Positions 1 to 13,203 of a stretch of 13,203 bases of DNA are shown piece by piece. Numbering within the stretch: the stretch's first letter is position 1; each line of letters opens with the position of its first letter. The stretch is from the NCBI GenBank assembly GCA_007117145.1, contig SKHC01000025.1:1-13203 (forward strand). The letters run 5' to 3'. The notes under the pieces are model-generated. The model saw nothing but the letters and a program-made list of their open reading frames with translations. It made no database searches and was not told the DNA's origin. The DNA comes from Candidatus Woesearchaeota archaeon (GTDB taxonomy: Archaea; Nanobdellota; Nanobdellia; Woesearchaeales; 21-14-0-10-32-9). A program made the position numbers and the translations under genes.

Positions 1-969
1 AAGTTTAGCATCATCATCTTCAAACATGTAACGCAAGTACTGGAAAGACACATCAATACTTGGATCTCCACCTTTCAATCTGTGCTCTTCAAGACTATCC
101 TTGCCACCTGAAAAAGCGTATTTGTTTATCTTTAATTTAACATCATTAAAACTATCAGTAGTTAAAATACCTTTCACAGAGTCAGTACTACTCATTTTCC
201 CTTCACTTCCACTCAAAGGTGGAAGGAAACTGCATTGAATACTTGCTGGCTTGTAATATCCAAGCTTTGGAAGGATATCTCTTGTAATCCTAAAATGAGG
301 ATCTTGGTCTACAGCGTGAGGGATAAGACAAGGAATCTTTTTCTTTTTCAAAATACTTGGAAGAAACGCAGGTACAGCCTGAACACTCGTAAAAAATATG
401 GAGCCAATGTTACTGCTGTCAGTAAACCCAAAACTAGACTTAATAGTCGAAAACGTAATCTTCTTAGCAACCTTTATAGCCTCAGGGTATAAAAGATTAG
501 CATGCTTAGTATCAATTATGAAATGAGTTTTCTTCGGATTAAACCCGACAGCTATCACATCTAACATGTTCTCTTTAAGCCAACTTTGAATTTCCTCATA
601 GCTCTTGTCTTTGTATAAGAACTTTTCATCATCAGTAAACTGAAAATAAAGCTCTACATCGAACACGTCCTGAAGCCACTTCGTAAACTCCCAAACAAGT
701 AAGTGACCAATGTGAATAGGACCTGAAGGACCACAACCTGTGTATAAGAAGAACTTGTTACCTTTTTCTAACTCATCTAGAATCCATTTCATATCTCTAT
801 GCGCAAAAAATATTTTTCTATCCAGCATAAAATGAAGTTTTCCAGTATGCTTTTTTATACGATTTAAAAGTTTTTCATCAAGCTTTTCAAGACCAAATTC
901 TTTAATCAATTTATCATAATCAACTTTTCCTTCAACACTGTATGGATTCACTTTAGCTTTCTTTGTCAT
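1..969 (-). CDS. trpS: Tryptophanyl-tRNA synthetase, archaeal/eukaryal type (3' end outside window)
   Basis: This class I aminoacyl-tRNA synthetase charges tRNA-Trp with tryptophan in the cytoplasm. The first 323 codons are present; the family is usually about 370 aa, so roughly the last 50 lie beyond position 1. The N-terminus (residues 8-27) carries the NPYSVEGKVDYDKLIKEFG pattern of archaeal and eukaryal TrpRS. The HIGH signature is at residues 86-89 in TGCGPSGPIHIGH, and the second ATP-binding motif is KMSSTD at 258-263. FTDDEKFLYK (111-120) and YAFSGGKDSLEEHR (284-297) are further family hallmarks. The Arg usual in TGRGPS is Cys79 here. The ATG at 969 follows a TATA-like box at 997-1004, consistent with a leaderless or very short-leader mRNA. 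The gene is divergent from the small gene at 1082. Confidence 0.97.
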   Translation of the reverse strand, partial: MTKKAKVNPYSVEGKVDYDKLIKEFGLEKLDEKLLNRIKKHTGKLHFMLDRKIFFAHRDMKWILDELEKGNKFFLYTGCGPSGPIHIGHLLVWEFTKWLQDVFDVELYFQFTDDEKFLYKDKSYEEIQSWLKENMLDVIAVGFNPKKTHFIIDTKHANLLYPEAIKVAKKITFSTIKSSFGFTDSSNIGSIFFTSVQAVPAFLPSILKKKKIPCLIPHAVDQDPHFRITRDILPKLGYYKPASIQCSFLPPLSGSEGKMSSTDSVKGILTTDSFNDVKLKINKYAFSGGKDSLEEHRLKGGDPSIDVSFQYLRYMFEDDDAKL

Positions 970-996
970 ATATACAAGATATACATGATAATTAAT

Positions 997-1004
997 AAAT
1001 ATAT
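997..1004 (-). promoter_or_regulatory. TATA box for trpS
   Basis: On the minus strand this reads ATATATTT. Its centre is about 31 nt before the trpS ATG, as expected for an archaeal box A feeding a leaderless or very short-leader transcript. Confidence 0.5.
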
Positions 1005-1050
1005 CGAACCAGAACCCTTTTAATTACAAAGTAGTAATAATTATAAAAAC

Positions 1051-1058
1051 ATTTAAAT
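1051..1058 (+). promoter_or_regulatory. TATA box for the 136-aa gene
   Basis: ATTTAAAT preceded by AAAAC (a BRE-like purine run), centred about 27 nt before the ATG at 1082. The same AAAC-ATTTAAAT combination occurs ahead of grpE at 10259-10269. No Shine-Dalgarno site precedes the start, so the mRNA is probably leaderless. Confidence 0.6.
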
Positions 1059-1081
1059 CTGTATGCGATAGTAACATTAAG

Positions 1082-1492
1082 ATGCGAGAGATTGGCAACA
1101 TATCAATAGGTTCCATAGAGGACTTGATTGAATCTCATAAAACTAAAATTCTAGGAAAAGGCGAAGTAGAAGTATATTTAGATAATATAAGATTATTCGG
1201 GCATGAATACGAAGAAATCAAAACAGATACTGGACTTACAATATGTACAACCAGCAAAAGCAAAATACACATAGATGAAGTAATAACACATTCAGATGAT
1301 AGGAAAACAATTCTCAGTAACATTTCAAAAGGAAAAAGAAATATAGAAAAGTATAGAAACTTGTTTTTAAAAGACATAGATTCATTATTAAAAAATAGGA
1401 AATTATACGTTGCAGAAGCCAGATTCATTTCACATCCTGATTGGAATAATGCTTTGTATTCTCTAAAAGGAAAATTATACAGAGAAAAATAG
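1082..1492 (+). CDS. Uncharacterised 136-aa protein
   Basis: I do not recognise this protein. It is soluble, charged and lysine-rich, with no signal peptide or membrane segment. The first half (about 1-75) looks like mixed alpha/beta with a possible strand region around residues 28-66. The second half (about 76-136) looks helical and basic, with KGKRNIEKYRNLF, and ends in an aromatic patch (FISHPDWNNALYS). Coding potential is supported by a well placed TATA box 27 nt upstream and by AGA/ATA-rich codon use like the neighbours. It shares the 970-1081 gap with divergent trpS. The next gene starts 44 nt downstream with its own TATA box, so this is probably monocistronic. The antisense frame at 1135-1524 is a shadow. 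Confidence 0.75.
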   Translation: MREIGNISIGSIEDLIESHKTKILGKGEVEVYLDNIRLFGHEYEEIKTDTGLTICTTSKSKIHIDEVITHSDDRKTILSNISKGKRNIEKYRNLFLKDIDSLLKNRKLYVAEARFISHPDWNNALYSLKGKLYREK

Positions 1493-1502
1493 ATTAGCAA
1501 AA

Positions 1503-1512
1503 ATATATAAAT
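1503..1512 (+). promoter_or_regulatory. TATA box for the UPF0316 gene
   Basis: ATATATAAAT, centred about 29 nt before the ATG at 1537, with no Shine-Dalgarno site in between. This suggests a leaderless transcript. Confidence 0.55.
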
Positions 1513-1536
1513 CCCGCTAGTCAATCACGAAACTAT

Positions 1537-2103
1537 ATGTTAGAAATACTTCAAAACGAACAATTCATAACCTTATTTATAATACCTCTCCTAATACTTA
1601 TAGCAAGAATAGTAGACGTCACACTTGGCACAATAAGACTAATATTTATATCCAAAGGAGAAAAACTACTAAGCGCAGTAATCGGGTTCTTTGAAGTACT
1701 CATTTGGCTCTTAGCCATCACAAGGATAATGGATAACTTAAGCAACATATACGCGTACCTGGCCTACGCTTTAGGTTTTAGTCTTGGAACCTACATAGGT
1801 ATAATACTAGAACAAAAAATACTTATCGGAAAAGTAATAGTTAGAGTCATCACACATAAAGACAGCAAAGACCTAATAGAAGAACTTAGAAGAAAAAGAT
1901 ACACATTTACATGTATAGGAGTAGATGGACCAGATGGAGAAGTAAAATCTCTGCACGTTATCTGTCATAAAAAAGATGTAGGAAAAGTAATAAATTACGT
2001 TACAGAATACGATGAAAACGCATTCTACTCAGTTGAAGATGTAAGGATAGTAACTGAACATAAAGCAGCACAAATCTTAGGTCAAAACATCAAGGCAAAA
2101 TAA
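1537..2103 (+). CDS. UPF0316 family membrane protein (DUF5698 + DUF2179)
   Basis: This matches the UPF0316/YebE-like family of small membrane proteins of unknown biochemical role. Residues 10-30, about 44-64 and 71-91 form three hydrophobic segments, with the conserved IARIVDVTLGTIRLIFISKG stretch (22-41) at the first helix and its loop. The C-terminal cytoplasmic part (about 97-180) is a DUF2179-type domain, with a conserved VRVITHKDS strand and helix and the TFTCIGVDGPDG turn. DUF2179 domains also occur as C-terminal modules of YitT-type membrane proteins and are suspected ligand-binding domains. The 188-aa length is normal for the family. The gene converges with the HEPN-like gene, the stop codons being 4 nt apart. 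A run of seven T at 2120-2126 just past the stop may terminate it. Confidence 0.88.
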   Translation: MLEILQNEQFITLFIIPLLILIARIVDVTLGTIRLIFISKGEKLLSAVIGFFEVLIWLLAITRIMDNLSNIYAYLAYALGFSLGTYIGIILEQKILIGKVIVRVITHKDSKDLIEELRRKRYTFTCIGVDGPDGEVKSLHVICHKKDVGKVINYVTEYDENAFYSVEDVRIVTEHKAAQILGQNIKAK

Positions 2104-2107
2104 CAAT

Positions 2108-2545
2108 TTAAACCAACTCTTTTTTTAAATCTTCATAAATCTTAATAGTTTTATTAAGTAACAATTCCAATTCTTTCTTTGTTAAGTGCTCTTTGTTTTG
2201 CAAGTTTTTACAATAAAGCATACCATTTTCTATCCTAAAATCTAAGTGTTGAATTGAATTTCTAACCTTATAATCTACAGAGCTTAGATAACTATTATTA
2301 AGTTTTGAGAATACTTGGCCTGCAGACTTACAATCTTGAATGTTTAAGGAGTTATAGAGCAAGAACGCAATCAATTCTACGTAGTAAGAATAAACAAGTC
2401 CTAATTTAACAAACCTCAAATTAACATTATCCTCTTCCAAAAAATCAGCGTATAAAAGTTTTGTAACATCTTCCTTAGCTTTTAGAAGTTCAATGTTTTT
2501 TTTAAAACTGATATCCTGACTTTTCAAAAACTTGCGAGCATCCAT
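2108..2545 (-). CDS. HEPN-like protein with an Rx4H motif
   Basis: This is a 145-aa, mostly helical protein. The strongest clue is KVRNSIQHLDFRIENG at residues 93-108, where R95 and H100 form R-N-x3-H. That fits the Rx4-6H motif, with a polar residue after the Arg, that forms the active site of HEPN-domain RNases. The following F-R-I-x-N-G segment resembles the RNxxxHxxFxI context of HEPN proteins related to Abi and other defence systems. HEPN proteins act in toxin-antitoxin, abortive infection and RNA processing, often with an MNT nucleotidyltransferase. No MNT gene is adjacent here, so it may be a solitary member. The assignment rests on the motif plus predicted helices. A TATA box at 2568-2576 supports the ATG at 2545. 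Confidence 0.55.
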   Translation of the reverse strand: MDARKFLKSQDISFKKNIELLKAKEDVTKLLYADFLEEDNVNLRFVKLGLVYSYYVELIAFLLYNSLNIQDCKSAGQVFSKLNNSYLSSVDYKVRNSIQHLDFRIENGMLYCKNLQNKEHLTKKELELLLNKTIKIYEDLKKELV

Positions 2546-2567
2546 ATTGTATCAAAAACGAACCTGT

Positions 2568-2576
2568 GTTTATATT
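2568..2576 (-). promoter_or_regulatory. TATA box for the HEPN-like gene
   Basis: The minus strand reads AATATAAAC, centred 27 nt before the ATG at 2545. This implies a leaderless transcript separate from the racemase gene upstream. Confidence 0.5.
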
Positions 2577-2588
2577 TTTTCGCAATAC

Positions 2589-3275
2589 TTATTTCTTAAA
2601 TATTTCGTCAGCTGTTGCAATAGCCAATACATTCATAGTGTCAAAGACATGAACATTTGCTTGCAAAGGTTTCAGTAATTGAAAATCAGTACACGCCAGC
2701 AATACAGAGTCCACATCTTCAAAATCATTTATCACTTTTATCAAGTTCGCTCTATCCTCAGTAGTTTTTTCTCCGTAAGTCGTATTCATTACAATGCTTT
2801 CCAAAATCTTTTGATCTTCAAAGCTTGGCGTTTTAAATAAAATGTTGTTTTCTTCTAAAATAGAATCATACAATTTATTATCAATTGTTGAAGTAGTACT
2901 TACAATCCCTGTCTTTCGAATTTTGTTTTTAATCAAAAACTTAGCCGTTTCCTCTAAAATGCTAAGAACGGGTATACTCACAGATTCACGAACTTCATCA
3001 ATGTATACATGAACAGAATTGCAAGGAATAACCAAAAAATCACAACCGGCCTTTTCTAATCTTTGAGCTTCTTCAATCATATAAGGCAAATACCTTTCAA
3101 TACCTTTATTGTTTAAAATTAAGTCTTCTCCCATATCGTAAGTTACTGGCAGACTTGAAATAATAATTCTAGGTCTTACCTCTTTATACTTTTCTTGACA
3201 TAAATATATCAAATCATTATAGAAATTCGCTGTTGTTTCAGGTCCTAAACCTCCAATAACTCCTACAGTCCTCAT
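2589..3275 (-). CDS. Aspartate/glutamate racemase family protein
   Basis: This is a PLP-independent amino acid racemase of the Asp/Glu/hydantoin racemase superfamily, which interconverts L- and D-amino acids by a two-cysteine, two-base mechanism. The N-terminus has the family signature VIGGLGPETT (residues 6-15). The two catalytic cysteines are both present: C85 in IPCNSVH and C195 in LACTDF. The 228-aa length is standard and both alpha/beta lobes look complete. Aspartate racemase is the likeliest activity because of the GGxGPxxT start and the YgeA-like layout; broad-specificity amino acid racemase is the alternative. Substrate cannot be read from sequence. It has its own TATA box 26 nt upstream, so it is probably transcribed alone or continues into the HEPN-like gene 43 nt downstream. 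Confidence 0.9.
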   Translation of the reverse strand: MRTVGVIGGLGPETTANFYNDLIYLCQEKYKEVRPRIIISSLPVTYDMGEDLILNNKGIERYLPYMIEEAQRLEKAGCDFLVIPCNSVHVYIDEVRESVSIPVLSILEETAKFLIKNKIRKTGIVSTTSTIDNKLYDSILEENNILFKTPSFEDQKILESIVMNTTYGEKTTEDRANLIKVINDFEDVDSVLLACTDFQLLKPLQANVHVFDTMNVLAIATADEIFKK

Positions 3276-3295
3276 CTCACATTGGATTATCTAAT

Positions 3296-3305
3296 GTTTT
3301 AAATT
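3296..3305 (-). promoter_or_regulatory. TATA box for the racemase gene
   Basis: The minus strand reads AATTTAAAAC, centred 26 nt before the ATG at 3275. No Shine-Dalgarno site is present, so the mRNA is probably leaderless. Confidence 0.5.
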
Positions 3306-3317
3306 GTTTTTTCTTTT

Positions 3318-3587
3318 TCATGTCTTGTATATTACATCGTGATGGTTGAATTCTTCAAATATTATCTTTCCATTTTCGTTTATTGAGAATATTAACACAA
3401 AGCTTTTATCTATGTGTACTCGTTTTAGATGATTTAATGGTTTGCGTAAGTTTTTATAGTGATTTATGTCTTTGCAGGAAATGATTTCCTTTATTTTTTT
3501 CTCTATAACAAGCACTTGTTTAGGGTTTTTCTTTGCTAATTTTAAGAATTGTTTCTCTAAGCTTTTTCTGATTTCATATTTGTACAT
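3318..3587 (-). CDS. RelE/ParE superfamily toxin
   Basis: This is an 89-aa protein with the compact alpha-alpha-beta layout of RelE-type ribosome-dependent mRNA interferases. Two N-terminal helices (about 5-37, rich in Lys and containing EKQFLKLAKKNP) are followed by the strand motif LNHLKRVHIDKSFVLIFSI (51-69). The C-terminal end is FEEFNHHDVIYKT, matching the H-x-D-x-I-Y end of archaeal RelE proteins. It starts 2 nt after the stop of the DUF2683 gene and lacks its own Shine-Dalgarno site, so translation is probably coupled to the antitoxin. That order, antitoxin first, is typical of type II toxin-antitoxin operons. No truncation is seen. Whether it still cleaves mRNA is unknown. Confidence 0.82.
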   Translation of the reverse strand: MYKYEIRKSLEKQFLKLAKKNPKQVLVIEKKIKEIISCKDINHYKNLRKPLNHLKRVHIDKSFVLIFSINENGKIIFEEFNHHDVIYKT

Positions 3588-3589
3588 TT

Positions 3590-3820
3590 TTATATGTTAA
3601 AATGTTTTTTAAAATCTTTTATCTCTACAGTATCTTCCTTTTCCCTTATTTTCATATGTTCAATGAATTCAGGTTTTAGTTCAGGTTCTAAATAATCTTT
3701 TCCGTAATCTATAACTACTTTTTCTATAGCTTCAGATTTATCTTTTAATCCATATTTGGCTTTAACAATATTCAGTACTTGATTCGCATTTTTAGATATT
3801 TTAATCATAGCTTGCACCAT
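3590..3820 (-). CDS. DUF2683 family protein, probable antitoxin of the RelE-type toxin
   Basis: This is a 76-aa archaeal DUF2683 protein, with the hallmark N-terminus MVQAMIKISKNANQVLNIVKAKYGLKDKSEAI split over residues 1-32. The short strand followed by two helices resembles ribbon-helix-helix antitoxins, which bind their own promoter through the N-terminus and wrap the toxin with the C-terminus. The charged tail (about 45-76) would be the toxin-binding part. I chose the ATG at 3820: GGTGAT at 3825-3830 sits 4 nt upstream, and family members begin MVQA. A GTG at 3829 would add MIY but would overlap the Shine-Dalgarno site. The toxin gene follows after 2 nt. The promoter carries a palindrome at 3830-3839, consistent with autorepression. 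Confidence 0.82.
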   Translation of the reverse strand: MVQAMIKISKNANQVLNIVKAKYGLKDKSEAIEKVVIDYGKDYLEPELKPEFIEHMKIREKEDTVEIKDFKKHFNI

Positions 3821-3829
3821 ATATATCAC

Positions 3830-3839
3830 CCATATATGG
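3830..3839. promoter_or_regulatory. Palindromic candidate operator of the toxin-antitoxin operon
   Basis: CCATATATGG is a perfect 10-bp dyad at the expected transcription start. Upstream, ATATAT tracts recur about every 10 bp up to the TATA box. Such an array of AT half-sites on one helical face is what cooperative binding by a ribbon-helix-helix antitoxin would need. This is inference from position and symmetry. Confidence 0.4.
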
Positions 3840-3852
3840 AATATATATGAAA

Positions 3853-3860
3853 TATATAAA
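3853..3860 (-). promoter_or_regulatory. TATA box of the DUF2683-RelE operon
   Basis: The minus strand reads TTTATATA. Transcription should start near 3830, giving a leader of about ten bases that just accommodates the GGTGAT Shine-Dalgarno site before the ATG at 3820. Confidence 0.55.
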
Positions 3861-3894
3861 TATTCCTTTTTTTAATGAATTGTTTTTTCTTTTT

Positions 3895-5223
3895 TTACAA
3901 AGAGCTATATCTTTTTAGTGCTGTATTTCTAGCATTACCATGATCCACTATAGGGCTTGGATAATCTACACCTAAAGGTTTTTCTTTATGCAGATTATGA
4001 ATTTGTTTTGGCGCTAACCCTTTAAGTTCAGGAACCCATTTTTTTATATACTCGCAATTCTTGTCAAATTTTTCTTGTTGCCTCCAAGGATTAAAAATCC
4101 TAAAGTAAGGGGCAGCATCACAACCAGTTCCAGCAGCCCACTGCCAATTACTATTATTTATGCAAGGATCATAATCAACAAGCTTTGTTGCAAAATACTC
4201 TTCTCCAATTCTCCAACTAACACCTAAATCTTTAGTTAAGAAACTCGCTGTAATCATCCTAACACGATTGTGCATGAGCCCTGTGTCATTTAATTCACGC
4301 ATCCCAGCATCAACAATAGGAAACCCTGTTTTTCCACTCTTCCAAGCCAAAATCATCTCAGGATCGTCATCCCATTTTATAAAATCATACTTTTTATCAA
4401 ACGCACCTGTAAAAACGTGAGGATTATGAAAAGCTACGTAAGTAAAGAAATCCCTAAAATACAACTGTCTAACAAGTCCGTGATTTTCCCCAAACAACAC
4501 ACGTAATTCATGGTAGACTTCTCTTATGCTAACAACTCCGAATTTCAAGTACGCAGACAATAAACTAGTATTAATACTTGGGTAATCTCTTCTTTCATTA
4601 TAATCTTTAAACTCTTTTAAGCTTTGTAAAACTCGCAATCCTTCACCTCTTCCTCCTTTCATTTTGCTTTTCTCAATCAATTCAAAGTTCAACTTAGAAA
4701 CACTCTCACTTTTTTCATCAATTAAGAATTCGCCGTTAACCGTGGTTGGCTTTGAAACAGTTAATTGCAACGCTTTCTTATAATAAGATGTGAAGACTTG
4801 GTAACTAGTTTTATCCTCTTTAAAAACAGATTCAGGGCTGTTTAGCATTGAATCATTAAAACTATAAAATTTTAACCCTGCATCCTTGCACGCAGCCTTT
4901 ATTTTCTTATCCCTTTCAATACTGAATGGAGTATAATCTCTATTTACAAAAACTGCCTGATATTTTTTTGATAAACTTTCAACAACTTTTTCTGGAGAGC
5001 CAAAATAAATGTTTAATCTACTACCCTGCTTTCTAAGCTCTTCATCTAAACTGCCAAGGCTATCAATTAAAAAGTTAAATGCCTTCCAACTAAAATATTT
5101 ATGATTTCTTTGCCGTGGGTCAAATATGAACACCGGCAAAACTTCTCCTTGACTTAAAGCAAAGTTTAACCCAGAATTATCTACTAAGCGTAAATCTCTT
5201 CTAAATACAAATATGCTCTTCAT
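3895..5223 (-). CDS. phrB: Deoxyribodipyrimidine photolyase, class I (CPD photolyase/cryptochrome family)
   Basis: This FAD-dependent enzyme uses blue or near-UV light to split cyclobutane pyrimidine dimers in DNA. Residues 1-130 are the Rossmann-like antenna-binding domain, starting with SIFVFRRDLRLVDN. The helical FAD domain spans about 205-440. Conserved blocks are GKTGFPIVDAGMRELNDTG (297-315), MHNRVRMITASFLTKDL (317-333) and WQWAAGTGCDAAPYFRIFNP (360-379). By gap-free alignment with remembered E. coli PhrB motifs, the electron-transfer Trp triad is intact (W284, W337, W360 for W306, W359, W382), and N356 matches the FAD-contacting Asn378. At 442 aa it is near normal for class I. These residues argue for a working repair enzyme. 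The antenna cofactor (MTHF or deazaflavin) cannot be told by eye. A TATA box lies 24 nt upstream, so the transcript is probably leaderless. Confidence 0.95.
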   Translation of the reverse strand: MKSIFVFRRDLRLVDNSGLNFALSQGEVLPVFIFDPRQRNHKYFSWKAFNFLIDSLGSLDEELRKQGSRLNIYFGSPEKVVESLSKKYQAVFVNRDYTPFSIERDKKIKAACKDAGLKFYSFNDSMLNSPESVFKEDKTSYQVFTSYYKKALQLTVSKPTTVNGEFLIDEKSESVSKLNFELIEKSKMKGGRGEGLRVLQSLKEFKDYNERRDYPSINTSLLSAYLKFGVVSIREVYHELRVLFGENHGLVRQLYFRDFFTYVAFHNPHVFTGAFDKKYDFIKWDDDPEMILAWKSGKTGFPIVDAGMRELNDTGLMHNRVRMITASFLTKDLGVSWRIGEEYFATKLVDYDPCINNSNWQWAAGTGCDAAPYFRIFNPWRQQEKFDKNCEYIKKWVPELKGLAPKQIHNLHKEKPLGVDYPSPIVDHGNARNTALKRYSSL

Positions 5224-5253
5224 AATATTAAAAAAAAATTAAAAATATAAAAA
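5224..5253 (-). promoter_or_regulatory. Promoter of the photolyase gene overlapping a T-rich terminator
   Basis: This 30-nt gap serves two purposes on the minus strand. The box TTTATATTTTT (5241-5251) is centred about 24 nt before the photolyase ATG. A T9 run at 5230-5238 and a T5 run at 5241-5245 are the kind of U-rich stretch that ends archaeal transcription, here of the SIMPL gene. Confidence 0.5.
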
Positions 5254-5943
5254 TTATCTGATTTTGTAAGTTACACTGACACTAGCGCTACTTGTAACCA
5301 ATCCAGGCTCAATAGTTGTGCCTCCGTCCATAGCTTCAAGACCCGCACTTCTCATCATAGGATAAAATTGTTGATTTACATCGATCTTTAAAGCAGGGCC
5401 AAGCCTTCCTCTTTGAATAACAGATTTAGCTTCAAGTTCAGCTTCTTTTTTTGCCTCTTTCAAAAGAGTTTCTCTAAGCTCTTTTCGTTTAGCATCACTT
5501 AAATCAAATCTGACATTACTTACAACATTTGCATTATTATCTCTTGCAACATCAAGTATAGGACCTGCAAGTTCAACATCATCAACCCTAATATTTACAC
5601 CACGGTAAACACTATACCCAATCAACTCAGCAGTTCTTAGGCTGTAATCATACCTAGGACTTACTCTGTATTCCTCTCTTAAAATATTAGCCTCAACAAG
5701 ACCTAACTCAAAAAGAGATTGTTTCAAATCTTCAATTATAACACTTGCTCTTCTTTGCGCATCTTGGCTATCATCATCTAATATTTCAACTCCGATGCTA
5801 GCATAAAAAACATCCGGAACAGCTTCAACTTCAGCATTTCCAACAACAGTTACAGTTCTATCTTCCATAGTTGTGTTAGCACCGTAAATCAATATGGTAA
5901 CACTTAAGATAATAACTGCGAAAATAATAGTGCTATCTTTCAT
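5254..5943 (-). CDS. SIMPL domain (DUF541) membrane-anchored protein
   Basis: This is a 229-aa DUF541/SIMPL protein, the family of E. coli YggE, linked to oxidative-stress tolerance but without a defined enzyme activity. Residues 5-21 form one N-terminal hydrophobic segment (TIIFAVIILSVTILIYG), probably an uncleaved anchor or signal sequence that puts the rest outside the cell. The domain begins at RTVTVVGNAEVEAVPDV (29-45), a family hallmark, and ends with VSVTYKIR. The 43-173 stretch alternates strands and helices as expected, with the typical long Lys/Glu helix (151-173). The ATG lies 1 nt after the stop of the lipoprotein gene and has a GGTGAT Shine-Dalgarno site (5949-5954) inside that gene's last codons. 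The two proteins are therefore co-expressed and probably both face outward. Confidence 0.88.
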   Translation of the reverse strand: MKDSTIIFAVIILSVTILIYGANTTMEDRTVTVVGNAEVEAVPDVFYASIGVEILDDDSQDAQRRASVIIEDLKQSLFELGLVEANILREEYRVSPRYDYSLRTAELIGYSVYRGVNIRVDDVELAGPILDVARDNNANVVSNVRFDLSDAKRKELRETLLKEAKKEAELEAKSVIQRGRLGPALKIDVNQQFYPMMRSAGLEAMDGGTTIEPGLVTSSASVSVTYKIR

Positions 5944-5944
5944 T

Positions 5945-6280
5945 TTAAATCACCCTTCTTTGAACAAGCTCCCCATCAATGTAGATTTCAACAAGAACTT
6001 CGTCATCTAAGTTTATACTACCACCAACACTTTGCTCGTCAATAACTTGAGCACACATAACATCAGGGTCAGGTGGTATAATGTTAAAATCAATCCTTGC
6101 AACACCGTCAATACTTGATACTTCTTTTTCTAAATTATGACAAGGAGTTGGCAAATTGATAATTCCTTGGTACTCTAAACCTTGAGAAGTTACTTCTAAT
6201 TCAAAAGGCCCTTCAATTTCTTGGACGCTTTGACATCCAACCATAAGTATACTAAAAAAAATTAGTGCTTTCCATATCAT
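5945..6280 (-). CDS. Putative secreted lipoprotein with paired cysteines
   Basis: This 111-aa protein has an N-terminal hydrophobic stretch (IWKALIFFSILMVG) ending in the lipobox-like LMVGC, so C16 could be lipidated after signal cleavage. The mature part is short and strand-rich, with INLPTPCHNLEKEV and PPDPDVMCAQVI placing two further cysteines that could form an extracellular disulfide. I recall a PTPC...C-x-Q pattern in small uncharacterised archaeal proteins, but can name no function. I chose the ATG at 6280 over a GTG at 6307: GGTGAG lies 5 nt before the ATG, and transcription from the TATA box at 6311-6321 would start near 6290, after the GTG. It is the first gene of the operon with the SIMPL protein. 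Confidence 0.72.
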   Translation of the reverse strand: MIWKALIFFSILMVGCQSVQEIEGPFELEVTSQGLEYQGIINLPTPCHNLEKEVSSIDGVARIDFNIIPPDPDVMCAQVIDEQSVGGSINLDDEVLVEIYIDGELVQRRVI

Positions 6281-6310
6281 AAGACTCACCCAAACACTGT
6301 AAAGCACTTT

Positions 6311-6321
6311 AAATATATAAA
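6311..6321 (-). promoter_or_regulatory. TATA box of the lipoprotein-SIMPL operon
   Basis: The minus strand reads TTTATATATTT. It lies in the 40-nt gap after the Lrp gene and should drive a transcript starting near 6290, with a very short leader holding the GGTGAG ribosome site. Confidence 0.6.
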
Positions 6322-6322
6322 T

Positions 6323-6784
6323 CTATTTAACAACGTTCAAATTCTTCCTGTACGTTAAGAATTCTTCTCTTTTCAAATCCTCCATTACAAAGAACTCTTG
6401 TTTTTCCTGAAAATCAAAGTCTTCAAGTTGCCTTGTAAACTTATCAAGCTCTTCAAGTCCTCGGAAAATTGTTTCAATCAAAAAGTCGTAACCATTACTA
6501 ATCCTAAAAACGTTGTTTACGTTTTTGTGTTTGACTAAAAATCTTTGAAGACTATCTTTTTTGTCTTTGTGAGCTCTGATTAAAATCTTTGCTCTAACGT
6601 TGTAGCCAAGTTGCTTAAAATCAATAAGAGACGTGTGTTTTGAAATTAAGTTGTTCTTTTCATATTCCTTTAACTTGTCATATATGGTGCTTACAGGTAC
6701 ATTGGTGTCTCGGCTTAGCTTTGTCAAACTCGTTCTGGAATTATTCCTGAAGTGTCCTAAAACTCTCAAGTCTTTTTCCTTCAT
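6323..6784 (-). CDS. Lrp/AsnC family transcriptional regulator
   Basis: This is a 153-aa DNA-binding regulator. Residues 4-50 form the AsnC-type helix-turn-helix, with SLTKLSRDTNVPVSTIYDKLKEYEKNNLI giving the tri-helical core and recognition helix around 30-41. Residues 62-136 form the RAM ligand-binding and dimerisation fold (strand ARILIRAH-like, FRISNGYDFLIETIF with the conserved Gly-Tyr-Asp). Family members sense amino acids or other small ligands as dimers or octamers and often regulate themselves and divergent genes. The gene is divergent from the three-gene operon starting at 6929. The intervening 144 bp hold several dyads, making that operon and itself the obvious targets. The ATG at 6784 has a G-rich stretch about ten bases upstream as a weak ribosome site. 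The ligand is unknown. Confidence 0.92.
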   Translation of the reverse strand: MKEKDLRVLGHFRNNSRTSLTKLSRDTNVPVSTIYDKLKEYEKNNLISKHTSLIDFKQLGYNVRAKILIRAHKDKKDSLQRFLVKHKNVNNVFRISNGYDFLIETIFRGLEELDKFTRQLEDFDFQEKQEFFVMEDLKREEFLTYRKNLNVVK

Positions 6785-6831
6785 GTTTATCTGCCCCCGA
6801 ACAAAAAGTCCAACACTAATTATGGAGAAGG

Positions 6832-6844
6832 CTTATTAAATAAG
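6832..6844. promoter_or_regulatory. Perfect 13-bp palindrome over the Lrp-gene TATA box
   Basis: CTTATTAAATAAG is a perfect dyad (CTTATT-A-AATAAG). Read on the minus strand it includes a TTATTTAATAAG TATA-like box centred about 54 nt before the Lrp-family start, implying a leader of about 25-30 nt. A protein bound here would block TBP, which fits autorepression. Symmetry is partly expected in AT-rich DNA. Confidence 0.4.
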
Positions 6845-6850
6845 TTATTT

Positions 6851-6888
6851 CTGAAACTAAAACGTTTGTTTCAGGAATTTTCTGAAAC
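6851..6888. promoter_or_regulatory. Three CTGAAAC boxes in alternating orientation, candidate operator
   Basis: CTGAAAC occurs at 6851-6857 (+), as its complement GTTTCAG at 6868-6874, and again at 6882-6888 (+). The two direct copies start 31 bp apart, about three helical turns. The second and third form an inverted repeat over 6868-6888, and the first and second another over 6851-6874. Both direct copies sit in the longer TTTCTGAAAC. The array lies between the divergent promoters, just upstream of the expected TATA region of the gene at 6929. The Lrp-family protein or the winged-helix protein itself is the likely binder. Confidence 0.55.
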
Positions 6889-6893
6889 AAAAA

Positions 6894-6913
6894 AGTATTA
6901 ATATTATAATACT
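6894..6913 (+). promoter_or_regulatory. Probable promoter core of the three-gene operon, with an inverted repeat
   Basis: Arms AGTATTA (6894-6900) and TAATACT (6907-6913) flank ATATTA, about 27 nt before the ATG at 6929, where a box A is expected. No canonical TTTATATA is present, so the promoter may be weak or activator-dependent. The dyad may be an operator or chance. Confidence 0.35.
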
Positions 6914-6928
6914 AATACAATAATAGAG

Positions 6929-8389
6929 ATGAACACTCAAAAACAAAAAGTACTCCTAGCATTCACAAAAGAAAAAAACAAACCGCTTAGCACAAGCGAT
7001 CTAGTAAAACACGTATTCAAAAAAGAATACGAGGAATGCCAAGACAAAATAACTACACCAACAAAAGACAAAGAAGTTATAAAACTTGGAAAAAGAGAAC
7101 TCGCAAGACTACACAGAAAACTACTATACCACTTAAACACGTTAGTACAAGACTCAACACTAATAGTTACAAACGTTAAAGGGAAAGGAGAGAAACACTA
7201 CGCAGTAAACACTCAAAAAGAACAAGACGATTACAAACTAAAAAAAATCGTGGAGACAATCACAGGAAGAGAGCTTGAAAACGTAGACTTACAAGGACTA
7301 GAAAAATTCATATCAAAAGGCTACATAAAAAAACCGAAAAGCAACTACATCAGAAAACTAAAAACTATATTGATAAACCCGAAAGGAAAAACACTAACAG
7401 AACTTTTCATATTACTAGAAGATTTAATGGTCACAATCACTGACACGATAGCAATAGAAGACTTCCAAACATTAATCAGTCAAAACGAGCCAGAACATCT
7501 ACAAACATTTCTTAGAAAACTAGACTATGAAAGCCAAGAGTACAACATACAAATCAACTTACTCCTAGAAGCCAAAAGTACAGATCAAGCAAGAATGACT
7601 GATTTTCTTGAAAGCTTAAAAAAAACAAACCTGAAAGCAATCCTATTAACCTCAGTAGAAGAAATTGGAAACAAAAACCGACTTTTTAAAAAACTGCTAG
7701 GCATTACAAACGTGTCTTTTCAAAACAAAGCAATAAACCACAGTCCGATAATACTTGGAAAAGAAGGAGCATACAGTGTAAGCAGAAAACACTGGGACGA
7801 ATACCTCCAAGTAAAAAACGATTTAACAGGCCTATTATATAGCAGCACATCAGTAGTGGTAGATGCCAAGAAAGTTTTTGAGAGAAAACTAACATACTTT
7901 GAATTCAGAGAACTAATAATAGAGCTTGCAAAAAACATGATAAAAGCAATGACACATCAAAGAAGAAACGCAGACACACTATTTTTCAAAATAAACCACT
8001 TAAACAAAGCCAAGCAAAAAGAATTCTACCAAGCAAACACATCATACATCAGATTAAAACATATAGAATCAGAAGTAAAAAATTCAGATGATGAACTACT
8101 AAACTTACTTGAAAGCACAACAGAACAATTAAAAGAATTCTGCACATCATCAGAAACCATATTCAAAAGCTGTGGTTTGCCAACAAGAATCAGAATCAAA
8201 CTTGGAACAACAACTCCAACAAGCACAAAAGACGTTGTAACAAATGAGATAATAAAAACAATAGATAGCCATCACAGCTTTGCAAACATAAAAGACACAA
8301 ACCAGTTAATAACAATATTTAACGAGTGCAAAACAGCCCTAATAGAAGTTAAAAGAACAGAAAGCGTGACATTGGAGAAATTCATATGA
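6929..8389 (+). CDS. Winged-helix protein of unknown function, first gene of the TS-like operon
   Basis: I do not recognise this 486-aa protein as a whole. Residues 1-95 look like a winged helix: helices around 3-13, 22-33 and 56-74 (recognition-like LHRKLLYHLNTLVQ), then a wing VTNVKGKGEKHYAV. The rest appears soluble alpha/beta. Residues 100-200 are mostly helical. Residues 205-320 alternate strands and helices (YNIQINLLLEAKS, KAILLTSVEE, HSPIILGKEGAYSV, SSTSVVVDAKKVF). Residues 321-486 are largely helical, with a basic patch QRRNAD near 344. I see no Walker, nuclease, methyltransferase or membrane motif. The ATG at 6929 lacks a Shine-Dalgarno site and lies about 27 nt from the promoter core. 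The stop overlaps the next start by 4 bases (ATGA). DNA binding and a shared role with the TS-like protein are inference. Confidence 0.8.
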   Translation: MNTQKQKVLLAFTKEKNKPLSTSDLVKHVFKKEYEECQDKITTPTKDKEVIKLGKRELARLHRKLLYHLNTLVQDSTLIVTNVKGKGEKHYAVNTQKEQDDYKLKKIVETITGRELENVDLQGLEKFISKGYIKKPKSNYIRKLKTILINPKGKTLTELFILLEDLMVTITDTIAIEDFQTLISQNEPEHLQTFLRKLDYESQEYNIQINLLLEAKSTDQARMTDFLESLKKTNLKAILLTSVEEIGNKNRLFKKLLGITNVSFQNKAINHSPIILGKEGAYSVSRKHWDEYLQVKNDLTGLLYSSTSVVVDAKKVFERKLTYFEFRELIIELAKNMIKAMTHQRRNADTLFFKINHLNKAKQKEFYQANTSYIRLKHIESEVKNSDDELLNLLESTTEQLKEFCTSSETIFKSCGLPTRIRIKLGTTTPTSTKDVVTNEIIKTIDSHHSFANIKDTNQLITIFNECKTALIEVKRTESVTLEKFI

Positions 8390-9030
8390 AAACTATAGAT
8401 GTTTGGAAACAAAAATTAAAGAAAATAAAAAACGAAGGCTACACATACGTAGATATAGATAACAGAAGAGCAAAAGAGCTATTAAACGTCATAATCACAA
8501 TTGAAGATCCAAAAAAACAAGAAATTGAAGGCCCACTAGATTATTTAAGTGCACAACATAAATGGTTATACCCATCAAAAACAGAGATAAGCAACGTCAT
8601 GTTTAAAGAAATACTAAATCCGGCGTATGACTACACTTATGGAGGTAGAATATTTAACTTTGCAGACAAATTCAACCAAATAAACAACTTCATAATACCT
8701 CTATTAAAAAAACAACCATTAACACGGGCAGCAGTTGTCAGCGTTTACAACCCTATAGAAGATAGCAATTTCACAAACACAAACAAACCAGGAATAATAA
8801 TGCTATACTTTAGAATAATCGAAGAGAAACTCACAATAAGCGCAGTTATTAGAAGCCAAGACTTCTTTTTTGGCTGGCCAGCAAACATCTACCAAATATA
8901 TTCACTGCAAAAATACGTAGCAGAAAACCTAAATGTGGAAATTGGAAGTTTAACAACACTTAGCAACTCAACCCATATCTTCGAATCAAACTTTGAAGAC
9001 ATAAACCAATTAGTTCAAGAGGAAAAATGA
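8386..9030 (+). CDS. Thymidylate-synthase-like protein lacking the catalytic cysteine
   Basis: This 214-aa protein has the fold signature of archaeal-type thymidylate synthase (TS). YTYGGRI (84-88 region), LTRAAVVSVYNP (112-123), IRSQDFFFGWPANIYQIYSL (155-174) and THIFESN (196-202) match TS blocks. Aligned without gaps to remembered E. coli ThyA motifs from the active-site loop to the C-terminal His, R156, D159, N167 and H197 match Arg166, Asp169, Asn177 and His207. The nucleophile Cys146 falls on G136 (NKPGII instead of PPCH) and Tyr209 on F199. The nucleotide-binding fold thus looks kept while classical dUMP methylation should be lost. It may be a sensor, a scaffold, or an enzyme with different chemistry. 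It is coupled to the 486-aa protein and to the small coiled-coil protein by ATGA overlaps on both sides. Confidence 0.8.
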   Translation: MKTIDVWKQKLKKIKNEGYTYVDIDNRRAKELLNVIITIEDPKKQEIEGPLDYLSAQHKWLYPSKTEISNVMFKEILNPAYDYTYGGRIFNFADKFNQINNFIIPLLKKQPLTRAAVVSVYNPIEDSNFTNTNKPGIIMLYFRIIEEKLTISAVIRSQDFFFGWPANIYQIYSLQKYVAENLNVEIGSLTTLSNSTHIFESNFEDINQLVQEEK

Positions 9031-9203
9031 AAGTAAAAAAAATAAGCAAAGATGAGCAAATAAGAATACTTAGAGAAGAGCTCAAAAGAAAAAATACTCA
9101 GATAGAACAGTTAAAAAAAGAAAAAGAGTTACTCTTTAAACTAAGTATAAAAACAACTCAGAAGATGCAAGAAGAACAAAAATTCAAAGAAAACTCGAAA
9201 TAA
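9027..9203 (+). CDS. 58-aa coiled-coil protein, third gene of the TS-like operon
   Basis: This short gene starts at ATG 9027 inside the last codons of the TS-like gene (ATGA overlap) and ends at TAA 9201-9203. The protein begins MKVKKISKDEQIRILREEL. It is almost entirely charged helix (about 35 percent Lys plus Glu), with hydrophobic residues spaced as in a coiled coil (I13, L14, L18, I25, L28, L35, L36), and has no cysteine or signal peptide. The coupling to the previous gene, the clean stop and the coiled-coil pattern support a real gene, probably a small partner that dimerises or bridges the other two proteins. Its last 20 bases overlap the 3' end of the convergent uracil-DNA glycosylase gene. 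I know no named family. Confidence 0.68.
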   Translation: MKVKKISKDEQIRILREELKRKNTQIEQLKKEKELLFKLSIKTTQKMQEEQKFKENSK

Positions 9204-9750
9204 CTTTGAAATCTAATTCCAAGACTTTTCTAAGCCCTGGGTTGTATAACATGCTAGCAGGATGATATAGTGGAATTACAATTCTTGGACTTCCAGCTAA
9301 AACAATATTTTTTGGCTTTCCATGCAACTTACTAATACCTTCAATTTTATTCATACCCAAAACTTCAAAACCACTCAAAACAAACTTCGTTGCGTAGTTG
9401 CCAAGCGTGCAAATAATCTTTGGATTAATAATACTTATTTGTTTAATCAAAAAAGGCGTATGACTTTTTATTTCTTCAATGCTCGGATTCCTATTATTTG
9501 GAGGTCGATACTTTAAAATGTTGGCGATGTAGACATCATCTAAATCTAAGTTGATGCTGTTTAGAAGTTTATCTAACTCTTTGCCAGCACTTCCCACAAA
9601 AGGAACACCTAACTCATCTTCTTTAGCCCCCGGAGCTTCTCCTATGAATAAAATTTTAGCTTTTGGATTTCCCTTACCAAAAACCAAATTGTTTTCAGCC
9701 AAAGGCAGATTTTTGGATTCAATTTCTTTCTTTAACTCTTCCAGCTCCAT
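9184..9750 (-). CDS. udg: Family 4 uracil-DNA glycosylase without iron-sulfur cysteines
   Basis: This enzyme excises uracil from DNA, starting base-excision repair of deaminated cytosine. The motifs are those of family 4: [20 protein letters not shown] (37-56) as motif [18 protein letters not shown] (74-90), and [12 protein letters not shown] (163-174) as motif B. Length, 188 aa, is typical. The family normally binds a 4Fe-4S cluster with four cysteines. Here S12 and L15 stand at the usual CxxC, Y81 replaces the Cys of KCRPP, and H97 replaces the Cys of the next helix. The only cysteine left is C114, which is not a ligand. The fold must therefore be stabilised without the cluster. The upstream gene ends 2 nt before this start, so the two form an operon. 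Confidence 0.9.
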
Positions 9751-9752
9751 CT

Positions 9753-10172
9753 TTAAAATAAGCTAGCTATCCTGATAAACATCCTTGAAACTACAAGCTT
9801 AGTTTGACTTCCAAAACTTTGACCTTCAAGAATAATATCTTCTTTTAACCTAGCATTTAATTCTTTCAAAGGGTCATCACTATCTAAAATTATGTCAATA
9901 ACTTCCAAATCAGAGATGTATGCATGAATGTTTGGCTCATCAAGTGCTTCGCATCCAATACTTTCAACTTTTCCGTTACTAGTTTCTAAGTGGCCGATTA
10001 ACTCTTCATTTGGATCAAAGATGTTAATTTTGTCATTTCTATATGGGAGATACCTCGGAATACTTGCATCTTCAACAACTTCAGTTCTTTCAATTAACTC
10101 TTGACATAAGTCATTAGCACTAACCATACTTATTGTTCCAATCATTATTAATAATATAAATAGATATTTCAT
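9753..10172 (-). CDS. Small secreted protein of unknown function
   Basis: This 139-aa protein begins with a clear signal peptide ([19 protein letters not shown]), with a likely cleavage after residue 19 (VSA-N). The mature part is acidic, with two cysteines (C23 and C74) that could pair outside the cell. A segment [20 protein letters not shown] (49-68) looks like beta strands with turns, and [28 protein letters not shown] (90-117) like a strand followed by an amphipathic helix. I cannot assign a family; a weak likeness to SCP2-type lipid-binding ends is only an impression. I prefer ATG 10172 to a TTG at 10187: the TATA box centred near 10203 would start transcription about there. It is the first gene of an operon with uracil-DNA glycosylase, an odd functional pairing. 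Confidence 0.72.
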
Positions 10173-10196
10173 AGAATTTTTTATCAAGCATGGTTA

Positions 10197-10208
10197 GTTA
10201 TATATTTT
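10197..10208 (-). promoter_or_regulatory. TATA box of the secreted protein-UDG operon
   Basis: The minus strand reads AAAATATATAAC, centred about 30 nt before the ATG at 10172. No Shine-Dalgarno site lies between, so a leaderless or near-leaderless mRNA is likely. Confidence 0.55.
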
Positions 10209-10262
10209 TCTGTTAACAAAATAAATAATTTCTATATAGAAAATAAATATAAAAACGAAACA

Positions 10263-10270
10263 TTTAAATA
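10263..10270 (+). promoter_or_regulatory. TATA box of the grpE-dnaK operon
   Basis: TTTAAATA, preceded by CGAAACA as a BRE-like element. Transcription should start near 10290, leaving a leader of about 40 nt with GGTG (10322-10325) as ribosome site ahead of the grpE ATG. This leader is longer than the other promoters in the window give. Confidence 0.6.
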
Positions 10271-10294
10271 AAAAACATCGTTTTTGCATGGTTG

Positions 10295-10311
10295 GTTGAT
10301 TTAAAGTCAAC
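10295..10311. promoter_or_regulatory. Inverted repeat just downstream of the grpE transcription start
   Basis: GTTGATTTAAAGTCAAC has perfect 5-bp arms GTTGA/TCAAC around TTTAAAG. It begins a few bases after the expected start of transcription, where a bound repressor would block polymerase. This is a plausible heat-shock operator by position only; I do not recognise a named regulator's motif. Confidence 0.35.
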
Positions 10312-10333
10312 GTAAAAAGTGGGTGTATGATCA

Positions 10334-10786
10334 ATGGCAAAACAAACAAAAATATCAAAATTAGAACAAGAGCACAAAGAGTTAAAGGAATTACTACAAA
10401 GAAACCTAGCAGAATTCCAAAACTACCAGAAAAGAACGCAAAAAGATAAAGAAAACTTAGTAAAAATAGCGACGGAGGGATTAATACACAAAATCTTGCC
10501 AGTAATTGACAACCTCGAATTAGCACTCAAAAATAACAAAACACAAAACGATTTTTCAAAAGGAGTTGAAATGATATACACACAACTCTTAGAAGTATTA
10601 GAAGAAGAAGGAGTTAGACAAATACCCTCAGAAGAATTCAATCCCGCTCTGCACGAAGTAGTGTTAGTTGATGACAATGCAAAAGAAGAAAGCGTAATAG
10701 TACTACAAAAAGGGTATATGCTCGGAGACAAAGTACTAAGACACGCAAAAGTAAAAATAAACAGGAAAGGTGATAAAAATGAGTAA
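10334..10786 (+). CDS. grpE: Nucleotide exchange factor GrpE
   Basis: GrpE releases ADP from DnaK and so resets the chaperone cycle in the cytoplasm. This 150-aa protein is short, lacking the acidic N-terminal extension of many bacterial forms. Residues 5-45 form the long dimeric coiled coil, including the conserved [26 protein letters not shown] (55-65) and [18 protein letters not shown] (77-94) form the four-helix region. [11 protein letters not shown] (100-110) is the family signature of the beta domain that touches DnaK. The C-terminus [20 protein letters not shown] is canonical. GGTG at 10322-10325 serves as ribosome site. Its last 8 bases overlap dnaK, whose Shine-Dalgarno site lies in the grpE 3' end. 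Confidence 0.96.
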
Positions 10787-12611
10787 AGTAATCGGAATAG
10801 ATCTTGGAACAACATTCTCAGCAGTATCTGTAATGGAAGGAGGAAAACCAGTAATAATACCAAACGCGGAAGGAAGCAGAACAACACCTAGCGTTGTTAG
10901 CATATCAAATGATGGAGAAAGATTAATAGGAAACACAGCAAGAAACCAAGCAATTGTAAACCCAGAACACACAGTTCGAAGCATAAAAAGACATATGGGT
11001 GAAGACTACAAAGTAAAAATTAGAGGAAAAGAATACACGCCACAAGAAATAAGCGCGATGGTGTTGCAAAAACTAAAAGCAGACGCTGAAAGCTACCTTG
11101 GACAAAAAATTCAAAAAGCAGTAATCACAGTGCCAGCATACTTTAGTGATAGCCAAAGACAAGCAACAAAAGATGCAGGAAAAATTGCAGGCCTCGACGT
11201 ACTAAGAATAATCAACGAGCCAACAGCAGCAAGCCTAGCATACGGATTAGATAAAGGAGAAGATCAAACAGTACTAGTATTTGACTTTGGAGGAGGAACC
11301 TTCGACGTATCCATACTAGAACTTGGAGATGGAGTCTTTGAAGTAAAAGCAACAAACGGAGACAACCACTTAGGAGGAGATGACATAGACGAAATAATCA
11401 TTGACTTCATAGCAGAAGAATTCAAAAAACAAAATAAAATAGACTTAAGAGAAGACAAAACAGCATACCAAAGACTAAAAGAAGCAGCAGAGAAAGCAAA
11501 AATTGAACTCTCGACCAAAGTCAAAACAAGCATTAACCTGCCATTTATAACAGCAGACCAAACAGGACCAAAACACTTAGACATAGAGCTTACAAGAGCA
11601 AGATTTGAAAGCCTAATAAGTGACGTTATAAAAAGACTTGAAAGTCCAACAAAACAAGCACTAAAAGATGCAAAGATGACAGAGAAAGACTTAAACAAAG
11701 TAATCTTTGTGGGAGGAAGCACAAGAATACCTGCAGTGCAAGAACTAGTAAAAAAAATTACGAGCAAAGACGGAGACAAATCAGTAAACCCAGACGAAGC
11801 AGTAGCAATGGGAGCAGCAATACAAGGAGGAATACTAGCAGGAGAAGTAAAAGATGTATTACTACTTGATGTAACACCTCTAAGCCTTGGAATAGAAACC
11901 CTGGGAGGGGTCATGACAAAGATAATCGAGAAAAACACGACAATTCCAACAAAGAAAAGTCAAACGTTTAGCACAGCAGAAGACAATCAAAGCGCCGTGA
12001 CAATACACGTCTTGCAAGGAGAAAGACCAATGTCACAAGATAATAAAAGCCTTGGAAGATTCGACTTAGTAGGAATACCTCCAGCAACAAGAGGAGTACC
12101 ACAAATCGAAGTAACCTTTGACATCGACGCAAACGGAATAGTAAACGTCTCTGCAAAAGACCTTGGAACAGGAAAAGAGCAAGCAATAAAGATAACATCA
12201 ACCACTAACTTGTCAAAAGAAGAAGTGGAAAAAATGCAAAAAGAAGCAGAAGCAAACGCCAAGGAAGACGAAAAAAGAAAAGAAGAAGTTGAAGTATTAA
12301 ACCAAGCAGACAACTTAGTATACACAACAGAAAAACTCTTCGAAGACCTAAAAGACAAAGAAAAAGCAAAAGAGTTCGAGCCAATAAAAAAAGACATCGA
12401 TGAGCTAAAAAAACTCCGTGAAGAGAAGAAGATCGATGACTTGAAAAAGAAAATGGAAGAAATCAACAAGAAAGTCCAAGAAATGAGCCAAGAACTCTAC
12501 AAACAATCAGCTAAAGTACAAGAAAAACAAAAAACTGACGAAAAAGAAAAAACGGCTGACTTCGAAGAAGTAAAAGACAAAGAAGAAAACAATGATAAGG
12601 GCAAAAACTAA
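10779..12611 (+). CDS. dnaK: Molecular chaperone DnaK (Hsp70)
   Basis: This ATP-dependent chaperone binds exposed hydrophobic segments and refolds proteins with GrpE and DnaJ. The protein has 610 aa from the ATG at 10779. That start has GGTGAT (10769-10774) 4 nt upstream; a GTG at 10770 would overlap the site. Hsp70 signatures are all present: [14 protein letters not shown] at the N-terminus, [16 protein letters not shown], and [14 protein letters not shown] in the ATPase domain (about 1-360). The substrate domain (about 370-490) has [16 protein letters not shown], and the helical lid is very Lys/Glu-rich. After [16 protein letters not shown] the ATPase lobe lacks the insert of about 25 residues seen in E. 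coli, the state known for Gram-positive and archaeal Hsp70, consistent with old transfer from Firmicutes-like bacteria. Codons are strongly A- or C-ending. Confidence 0.98.
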
Positions 12612-12641
12612 AAACCCTTACCTTTTTCTTTTCTTTTCAAA
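12612..12641 (+). terminator. Pyrimidine-rich tract between dnaK and dnaJ
   Basis: The 30-nt gap contains CCTTACCTTTTTC followed by two more TTTTC repeats. A U-rich stretch like this is the normal archaeal termination signal, yet dnaJ starts just behind it, with no TATA box and no Shine-Dalgarno site visible. It could be a partial terminator that lowers dnaJ expression relative to dnaK. Confidence 0.4.
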
Positions 12642-13203
12642 ATGACAAAAGACTACTATAAAATACTAGGTGTAGATAAAAATGCTAGTAAAGAAGAAAT
12701 AAAAAAAGCATACAAGAAACTAGCAAAAAAATATCACCCCGACCTAAACAAAGACAGCTCCGCTGAAACCAAATTCAAAGAAATAAGCGAAGCAGCAGCA
12801 GTTCTAGGAGATGACCAGAAAAGACAACAATACGATTCTATGGGTCACGACGCATTCAAACAAGGAGGAGGTTTCCAAGGATTTGATTTTAATGATTTCC
12901 AAGGAGGCTTCCAAGGCTTTGACATGGACGACATATTAAACACATTCTTTGGAGGCGGAAGTCGAAGAAGACAAACAGGGAGCGACTTAAGAGTAGACAT
13001 AACCTTAGACTTAGAAGAAGCAGCGTTTGGAGCAGAAAAAGACATAAAAATAAAAAAAAGAGTCTCATGCAACTCATGCGATGGAAAAGGGGGAAAAACA
13101 AAAACTTGCTCTGTATGTGGTGGAAGCGGTATCACAAGGCAAATAAGAAGAACACCATTTGGAAGCTTCCAAACCCAAACCACGTGTGGAAACTGCCAAG
13201 GAA
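12642..13203 (+). CDS. dnaJ: Co-chaperone DnaJ (Hsp40), 3' end outside window
   Basis: DnaJ delivers substrates to DnaK and stimulates its ATPase. The first 187 codons are present, about half of a normal 370-aa protein. Residues 1-70 are the J domain, with the catalytic HPD at 32-34 in [10 protein letters not shown]. Residues 74-106 are a short Gly/Phe-rich linker with three near-repeats of QGF(D). The zinc module starts at C143-x2-C146 and continues with C156-x2-C159 and C182-x2-C185 before the window ends. The spacing between the first two cysteine pairs is about four residues shorter than in E. coli DnaJ (GKGGKTKTC instead of GSGAKPGTQPQTC). It is the third gene of the chaperone operon, separated from dnaK by a T-rich tract. 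Confidence 0.96.

Follow-up and report, generated by a model that had tools for sequence, protein, structure and literature searches.

A thymidylate synthase-like protein without the nucleophilic cysteine is paired with a winged-helix, ribonucleotide reductase-like protein in a candidate regulatory module of DPANN archaea

The stretch of DNA analyzed here (the window) is positions 1 to 13,203 (13,203 nucleotides) of contig SKHC01000025.1, from a Candidatus Woesearchaeota archaeon whose 640-kb genome assembly is 80% complete. Two overlapping plus-strand genes are its subject. The first (6929..8389) encodes a 486 amino acid (aa) protein, the partner, in which a winged helix-turn-helix (residues about 1-93) is fused to a ribonucleotide reductase (RNR)-like barrel. 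The second (8386..9030), whose start overlaps the partner's stop in the sequence ATGA, encodes a 214 aa protein of the thymidylate synthase (TS) fold without the catalytic cysteine. Upstream lie a 21-bp palindrome, GTTTCAGGAATTTTCTGAAAC, at 6868..6888 (a putative operator that ends 40 bp before the partner start), a further plus-strand half-site CTGAAAC at 6851..6857, and a divergent minus-strand gene (6323..6784) for a 153 aa Lrp/AsnC-type regulator (PF01037, 2.3e-6; PF13412, 1.7e-5). A preliminary description of the window had drawn attention to the TS-like protein; the RNR fold of its partner, the palindrome and the neighboring regulator make a module of that single odd protein. We see an even chance that the TS-like gene encodes a subunit of a DPANN module of two degenerate DNA-precursor enzymes with a regulatory role.

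The TS-like protein was originally described as a TS-fold protein with glycine in place of the nucleophilic cysteine, and this observation is borne out. Its structure model (all models here are of single chains) gives a TS fold, and profile TIGR03283 matches it over most of its length (1e-34) with a score of 119.8 bits, under the curated cut-off of 174.55 bits. Codon GGA at 8791..8793 places Gly136 where E. coli has Cys146. Two sets of homologues were aligned: the first has 78 rows (the window protein and 77 homologues), and the second comprises 48 loci reached through the partner gene, 6 of them near-copies of first-set rows. Cysteine is found at position 136 in 0/78 rows of the first set (61 Gly, 9 Ser, 8 Ala) and 0/48 of the second (31 Gly, 13 Ser, 4 Ala); thus it is the loss of cysteine that is fixed, and the glycine, whose fixation had been raised as a question, is not. 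Fifteen further stretches hold 16 TS-like genes. In the 9 directly behind a partner gene (4 of these also belong to the 48-locus set) position 136 is Gly, Ser or gapped, and in the 7 with no adjacent partner it is always Cys. A tree of 42 TS-like proteins puts the rows without this Cys on one side of a single branch, with weak support (46/88, 48% of bootstraps).

The dUMP-binding residues (Arg156, Ser157, Asn167, His197, Arg114/115) are mostly kept, as had been noticed for several of them in the window protein: R156, S157, N167 and H197 are each present in 78/78 first-set rows, R27 and R114 in 77/78, D159 in 76/78 and R115 in 72/78 (the window has Ala115), and Phe199 (codon TTC, 8980..8982), which corresponds to E. 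coli Tyr209, is F in 77/78. The second set is looser (R156 48/48, H197 47, N167 46, R115 46, R27 44, S157 43, R114 43, D159 39, F199 38), and certain wider members lose at least one of the binding residues. The TS-like subunit has no Cys that all members share; the best column, position 29, has Cys in 61/78 rows and Ala in the window, and a catalytic Cys moved to that position was rejected as an explanation. Because the loss of the nucleophile is fixed across homologues, classical TS chemistry is not expected from this protein, which supports the earlier view of it. Apart from this family, Cys-containing archaeal TS domains were seen within ~460-580 aa proteins with extra N- and C-terminal parts (loci L021, L023, L024, L026 and L029).

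The structure model gives the partner an RNR barrel, and the RNR claim rests on that model because sequence profiles give no proof of it; Pfam has no match in the protein. In the segment corresponding to the RNR finger loop stands Gly277 (codon 7757..7759; Gly291 in P0083), which is G in 133/133 ungapped rows and was matched by eye to the NrdD Cys-Arg, a match that the profile alignment does not confirm. No finger-loop Cys is conserved at P0083 positions 276-299, where the maximum is 10/134 (position 297; the exact register is uncertain). The C-terminal zinc/glycyl-radical domain is absent: the partner's sequence stops as the profile alignment comes to it. The only Cys kept at ≥90% in the family is Cys415 (codon 8171..8173; Cys439 in P0083), C in 131/132 ungapped rows. 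The best-conserved stretches of the partner are the recognition helix and the wing. A zinc ribbon plus ATP-cone of the NrdR type gave no Pfam match in 8 partner proteins. The C-terminal tail carries a conserved Leu-x-x-Phe (P0083 543-546; window about 8372-8386; L543 in 128/131 and F546 in 117/131 ungapped rows), which looks like a possible sliding-clamp-binding or subunit-docking peptide.

The two genes are strictly paired. The TS-like gene lies directly 3' of a ~490-610 aa partner in 23/23 other neighborhoods (chosen from the 46 other carriers known at that stage; the partner is cut by the contig end in L052), and in the reverse search from the partner it is the next gene on the same strand in 48/48 loci. 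Only three families recur widely around these loci, the partner, the TS-like protein and the Lrp/AsnC-type regulator, the last of which has a homologue in 20/23 other neighborhoods and is found in 32/49 loci of the second set. The 48 loci span records named Woesearchaeota, Pacearchaeota, Nanoarchaeota/Nanoarchaeia and Aenigmatarchaeota as well as unnamed archaea, and one Aenigmatarchaeota locus is on a complete chromosome (CP066684). Two Lrp/AsnC-type copies, tandem in several cases, were seen upstream of the operon in L153, L165, L166, L167, L169, L173 and L174.

The promoter palindrome has the form GTTTCAG-N7-CTGAAAC, with a spacer of 7 in 37/48 promoters and each other spacer in at most 2 (1 mismatch per half allowed). 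The 7-mer CTGAAAC is enriched 46-fold upstream of the partner (8.4 versus 0.18 per kb) and is present in 42/47 loci (L170, with only 7 bp of upstream sequence, was left out of the palindrome counts); the motif was also found in 19/23 loci of the first neighborhood set, which overlaps the 47-locus set, some contigs being in both. With ≤2 mismatches in total the palindrome occurs in 40/47 promoters and at 3 sites in the surrounding 368 kb, one of them just before a displaced Lrp gene (L156) and one at the partner start (L183). Many loci are related, and in sets thinned by partner identity it is present in 23/26 promoters (partners <50% identical) and 12/14 (<40%). In the window genome the palindrome at the operon is the only strict match.

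Are other enzymes for thymidylate and deoxynucleotide synthesis present in the same cells? Among 213 genomes sampled from the order, 43 are carriers at a cut-off of E 1e-38 (the diverged members in G036, G067, G105 and G155 are outside this tally), and another TS-like gene (ThyA, ThyX or tandem ThyX-like) is found in 37/43, three of these being weak ThyX matches of 1e-3 to 1e-5 (G008, G063, G148). The Cys-less gene is therefore usually not the sole candidate TS. The search for thyX or a second TS that had been suggested thus gave other TS-like genes in most carriers and none in the window genome (G000), and for that reason the protein may have an unusual catalytic role in the window organism. 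RNR was surveyed in 20 carriers (these and the 23 neighborhoods are part of the known carriers): PF02867 matches in 16 (weakly, 1.3e-5, in G077; partially in G000 and G003) and NrdD in 2, and the 2 with no RNR match are 77% and 73% complete. Tandem ThyX-like proteins of ~400-670 aa with 1-2 PF02511 matches, partly degenerate (L032-L044; G003, G004, G020, G024 and others), occur in many genomes with no PF00303 match, and numerous Woesearchaeota may rely on them as their main thymidylate synthase; they are encoded by a separate gene, and the partner, whose modeled fold is that of RNR, was rejected as a divergent form of them. A split class III RNR was also seen, in which the NrdD glycyl-radical domain (profile about 520-562) is in a separate short open reading frame (ORF) just downstream (G016:C45, G020:C1:336835-338710, G015, G024, G087 and others).

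Enzymes of deoxynucleotide and of thymidylate synthesis are paired here, both without the reactive Cys and one with a winged helix, and the simplest interpretation of this pairing is a nucleotide sensor with control over its own operon. The TS-fold and winged-helix RNR-fold proteins would form a complex whose old active sites still bind nucleotides (dUMP/dTMP for the TS fold, and for the RNR fold either a ribonucleotide or a deoxyribonucleotide); the ligand state would alter binding of the winged helix to the palindrome, so that the operon, possibly with weaker-site targets, would track the state of the DNA-precursor pool, and the Lrp-type protein encoded divergently at most loci would regulate this promoter region as well. 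The preliminary description had offered a dUMP/dTMP sensor as one option, which gains strength from the operon always shared with a winged-helix protein and from the conserved palindrome at its promoter. The more specific proposal, that a dead RNR with a winged helix and a dead TS read two points of precursor synthesis and set transcription through the 21-bp palindrome, as an old DPANN invention beside NrdR, we put forward only tentatively.

Several observations weigh against the sensor reading. The kinship to RNR is weak by sequence profiles: hhalign with 29 NrdD rows gave P 0.016 and an HH-suite probability of 2.8%, 2 NrdD rows gave nothing (P 0.85; class II control P 0.6), and HMMER with the partner against the PDB had no RNR among its matches. 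The established RNR regulator, NrdR, has a gene of its own in 176/213 genomes (161 above cut-off), though none was detected in the window genome. No site with ≤2 mismatches lies in 242 kb around RNR, NrdD, ThyX and ThyA genes (carriers account for only 123 kb), hence no regulon is seen beyond the operon itself. A strict pattern search found the motif 40 times in 22 genomes (reversed control, 10 times), and the 30 matches inspected were 12 at the operon, 12 in ORFs and 6 elsewhere, 2 of which precede a gene (a GTPase in G016 and a thioredoxin-like protein in G077). In 31 genomes a second strict search located 17 sites (control, 4), with 12/17 at the operon and a strict match missing in 16/31 carriers. 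Finally, the conserved barrel residues, Cys439-Gly-x-Pro included, could serve some reaction, and the palindrome could be bound by the Lrp-type protein and not by the winged helix.

A wider regulon defined by the strict motif was rejected: of the 4 non-operon sites inspected (of 5), 2 are in ORFs, 1 is in a tRNA-like gene and 1 is near the G077 gene. The palindrome in an apparent tRNA-gene intron (L222, G020:C1:841554) is probably a chance stem. The sole two intergenic candidate targets with a sizeable downstream gene are L126 (G016:C7) and L144 (G077:C23), where a strict half-site and a TATA-like box precede the GTPase and thioredoxin-like genes.

The alternative that survives best, doubtful though it is, gives the palindrome to the Lrp/AsnC-type protein as controller of the operon and lets the partner's winged helix bind other DNA or RNA; it overlaps the other readings, so that its likelihood is not additive with theirs. 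The frequency of the Lrp homologue near the operon agrees with it, as do the L156 site (2 mismatches), which precedes the Lrp gene 3 kb away with none before the partner, and L055 (G004), which has neither an Lrp gene nor CTGAAAC in the 250 bp upstream, in a genome with no strict palindrome. However, 6/9 suitable loci with no Lrp match nearby, Aenigmatarchaeota and Pacearchaeota among them, keep the palindrome (though their genomes may carry an Lrp gene at another place), and the partner is most conserved in its recognition helix and wing. Of the two candidates, the partner's winged helix is likelier than the Lrp-type protein to bind the palindrome.

We consider it unlikely that the pair is instead an active complex with new pyrimidine-nucleotide chemistry, in which the winged helix only ties expression to ligand. 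The strongly kept TS pocket of the main family, the polar positions and near-invariant Cys439 of the barrel, and the Cys-Cys-Ser that many partners carry right after the finger-loop segment (by consensus; the window partner does not) would suit such an enzyme, as would a palindrome that strict searches find almost solely at the operon, the pattern of an enzyme that regulates itself, and TS-fold enzymes of other chemistry exist, namely the cytidine monophosphate (CMP) hydroxymethylase MilA (5b6e) and the FAD-dependent phage deoxycytidine monophosphate (dCMP) hydroxylase AfhB (9iqu, 9iqc). But both usual catalytic Cys positions are gone with no universal Cys to replace them in the TS-like subunit, certain partner-linked TS-like members have lost Arg156, Ser157 or His197 too, and the Cys is retained in the phage protein RB69ORF048c, whose annotation likens it to dCMP hydroxymethylase and whose relation to AfhB is assumed.

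It is quite improbable that both proteins are regulatory subunits (prozymes) that modulate the host RNR and TS. Their folds match the enzymes to be modulated, and enzyme-activating dead paralogues are described for trypanosomatids, but the conserved winged helix would be left unexplained, and since carriers vary in RNR family and TS type, no constant enzyme partner is seen. Least probable is a TS that works without a covalent nucleophile in the manner of ThyX, if only in genomes that show no second TS; the phage hydroxylase is the one case in which we know of a flavin-binding feature in a TS fold. ThyX, which activates dUMP without a nucleophile according to PMC5954106, is a precedent, and 6/43 carriers, the window genome included, show no other TS, but these six are 80-93% complete and ThyX-like genes can score just 1e-3 to 1e-5, so the absence is weak evidence, and the other 37 carriers do have one.

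Among the neighboring genes, a family 4 uracil-DNA glycosylase (9184-9750, minus strand) is convergent with the TS-like gene; it is near the operon in 8/23 neighborhoods, every one of the same family as the window, and in 7/49 second-set loci, and was rejected as a member of the system. A DNA photolyase/cryptochrome-family gene (3895-5223, minus strand; PF03441, 2.5e-78) is also by the operon in same-genus G002. A viral origin was rejected (140 pattern matches in viral contigs, 0 confirmed), as was a defense system (PADLOC, 0 matches for 3 TS-like and 2 partner proteins).

If the sensor reading is true, small-genome archaea have made the two central DNA-precursor enzymes jointly into a sensor, and a defined palindrome with two proteins gives a direct handle on how such cells follow nucleotide supply. 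Because some sources label the TS-like gene a thymidylate synthase, thymidylate prototrophy of carrier genomes may be over-read. Searches of open-access papers, judged from listings, turned up nothing on such a TS-like/RNR-like module or regulator.

How does the module compare with known systems? It has the fold and most dUMP-pocket residues of archaeal (methanogen-type) TS (TIGR03283/PF00303), and differs in having Gly, Ser or Ala for the nucleophilic Cys in all rows examined, in its sub-cut-off score and in its RNR-like winged-helix partner. MilA- and AfhB-type enzymes differ from it to the extent that RB69ORF048c speaks for them, and to our knowledge they have no RNR-like partner. Unlike class III NrdD, the partner has neither the conserved finger-loop Cys nor the zinc/glycyl-radical domain, and has an N-terminal winged helix. 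By analogy, the system nearest in logic is NrdR, which represses RNR genes and consists of a zinc ribbon and an ATP-cone; in it an RNR-type nucleotide-binding part is likewise joined to a DNA-binding part that acts at promoter boxes; NrdR has other domains and is a separate gene, and the module palindrome was not found at RNR genes. BirA, PutA and NadR are enzyme-derived autoregulators in which an enzyme fold with a DNA-binding domain controls its own operon, and in PutA and NadR this domain couples expression to ligand. All three keep catalysis, whereas the two enzyme folds of the module are without their usual catalytic residues, and we know of no TS-fold or RNR-barrel protein that is part of a DNA-binding regulator. 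The parts of the module fit no family that we found, and its mode of action would be a variant of that of the enzyme-derived regulators.
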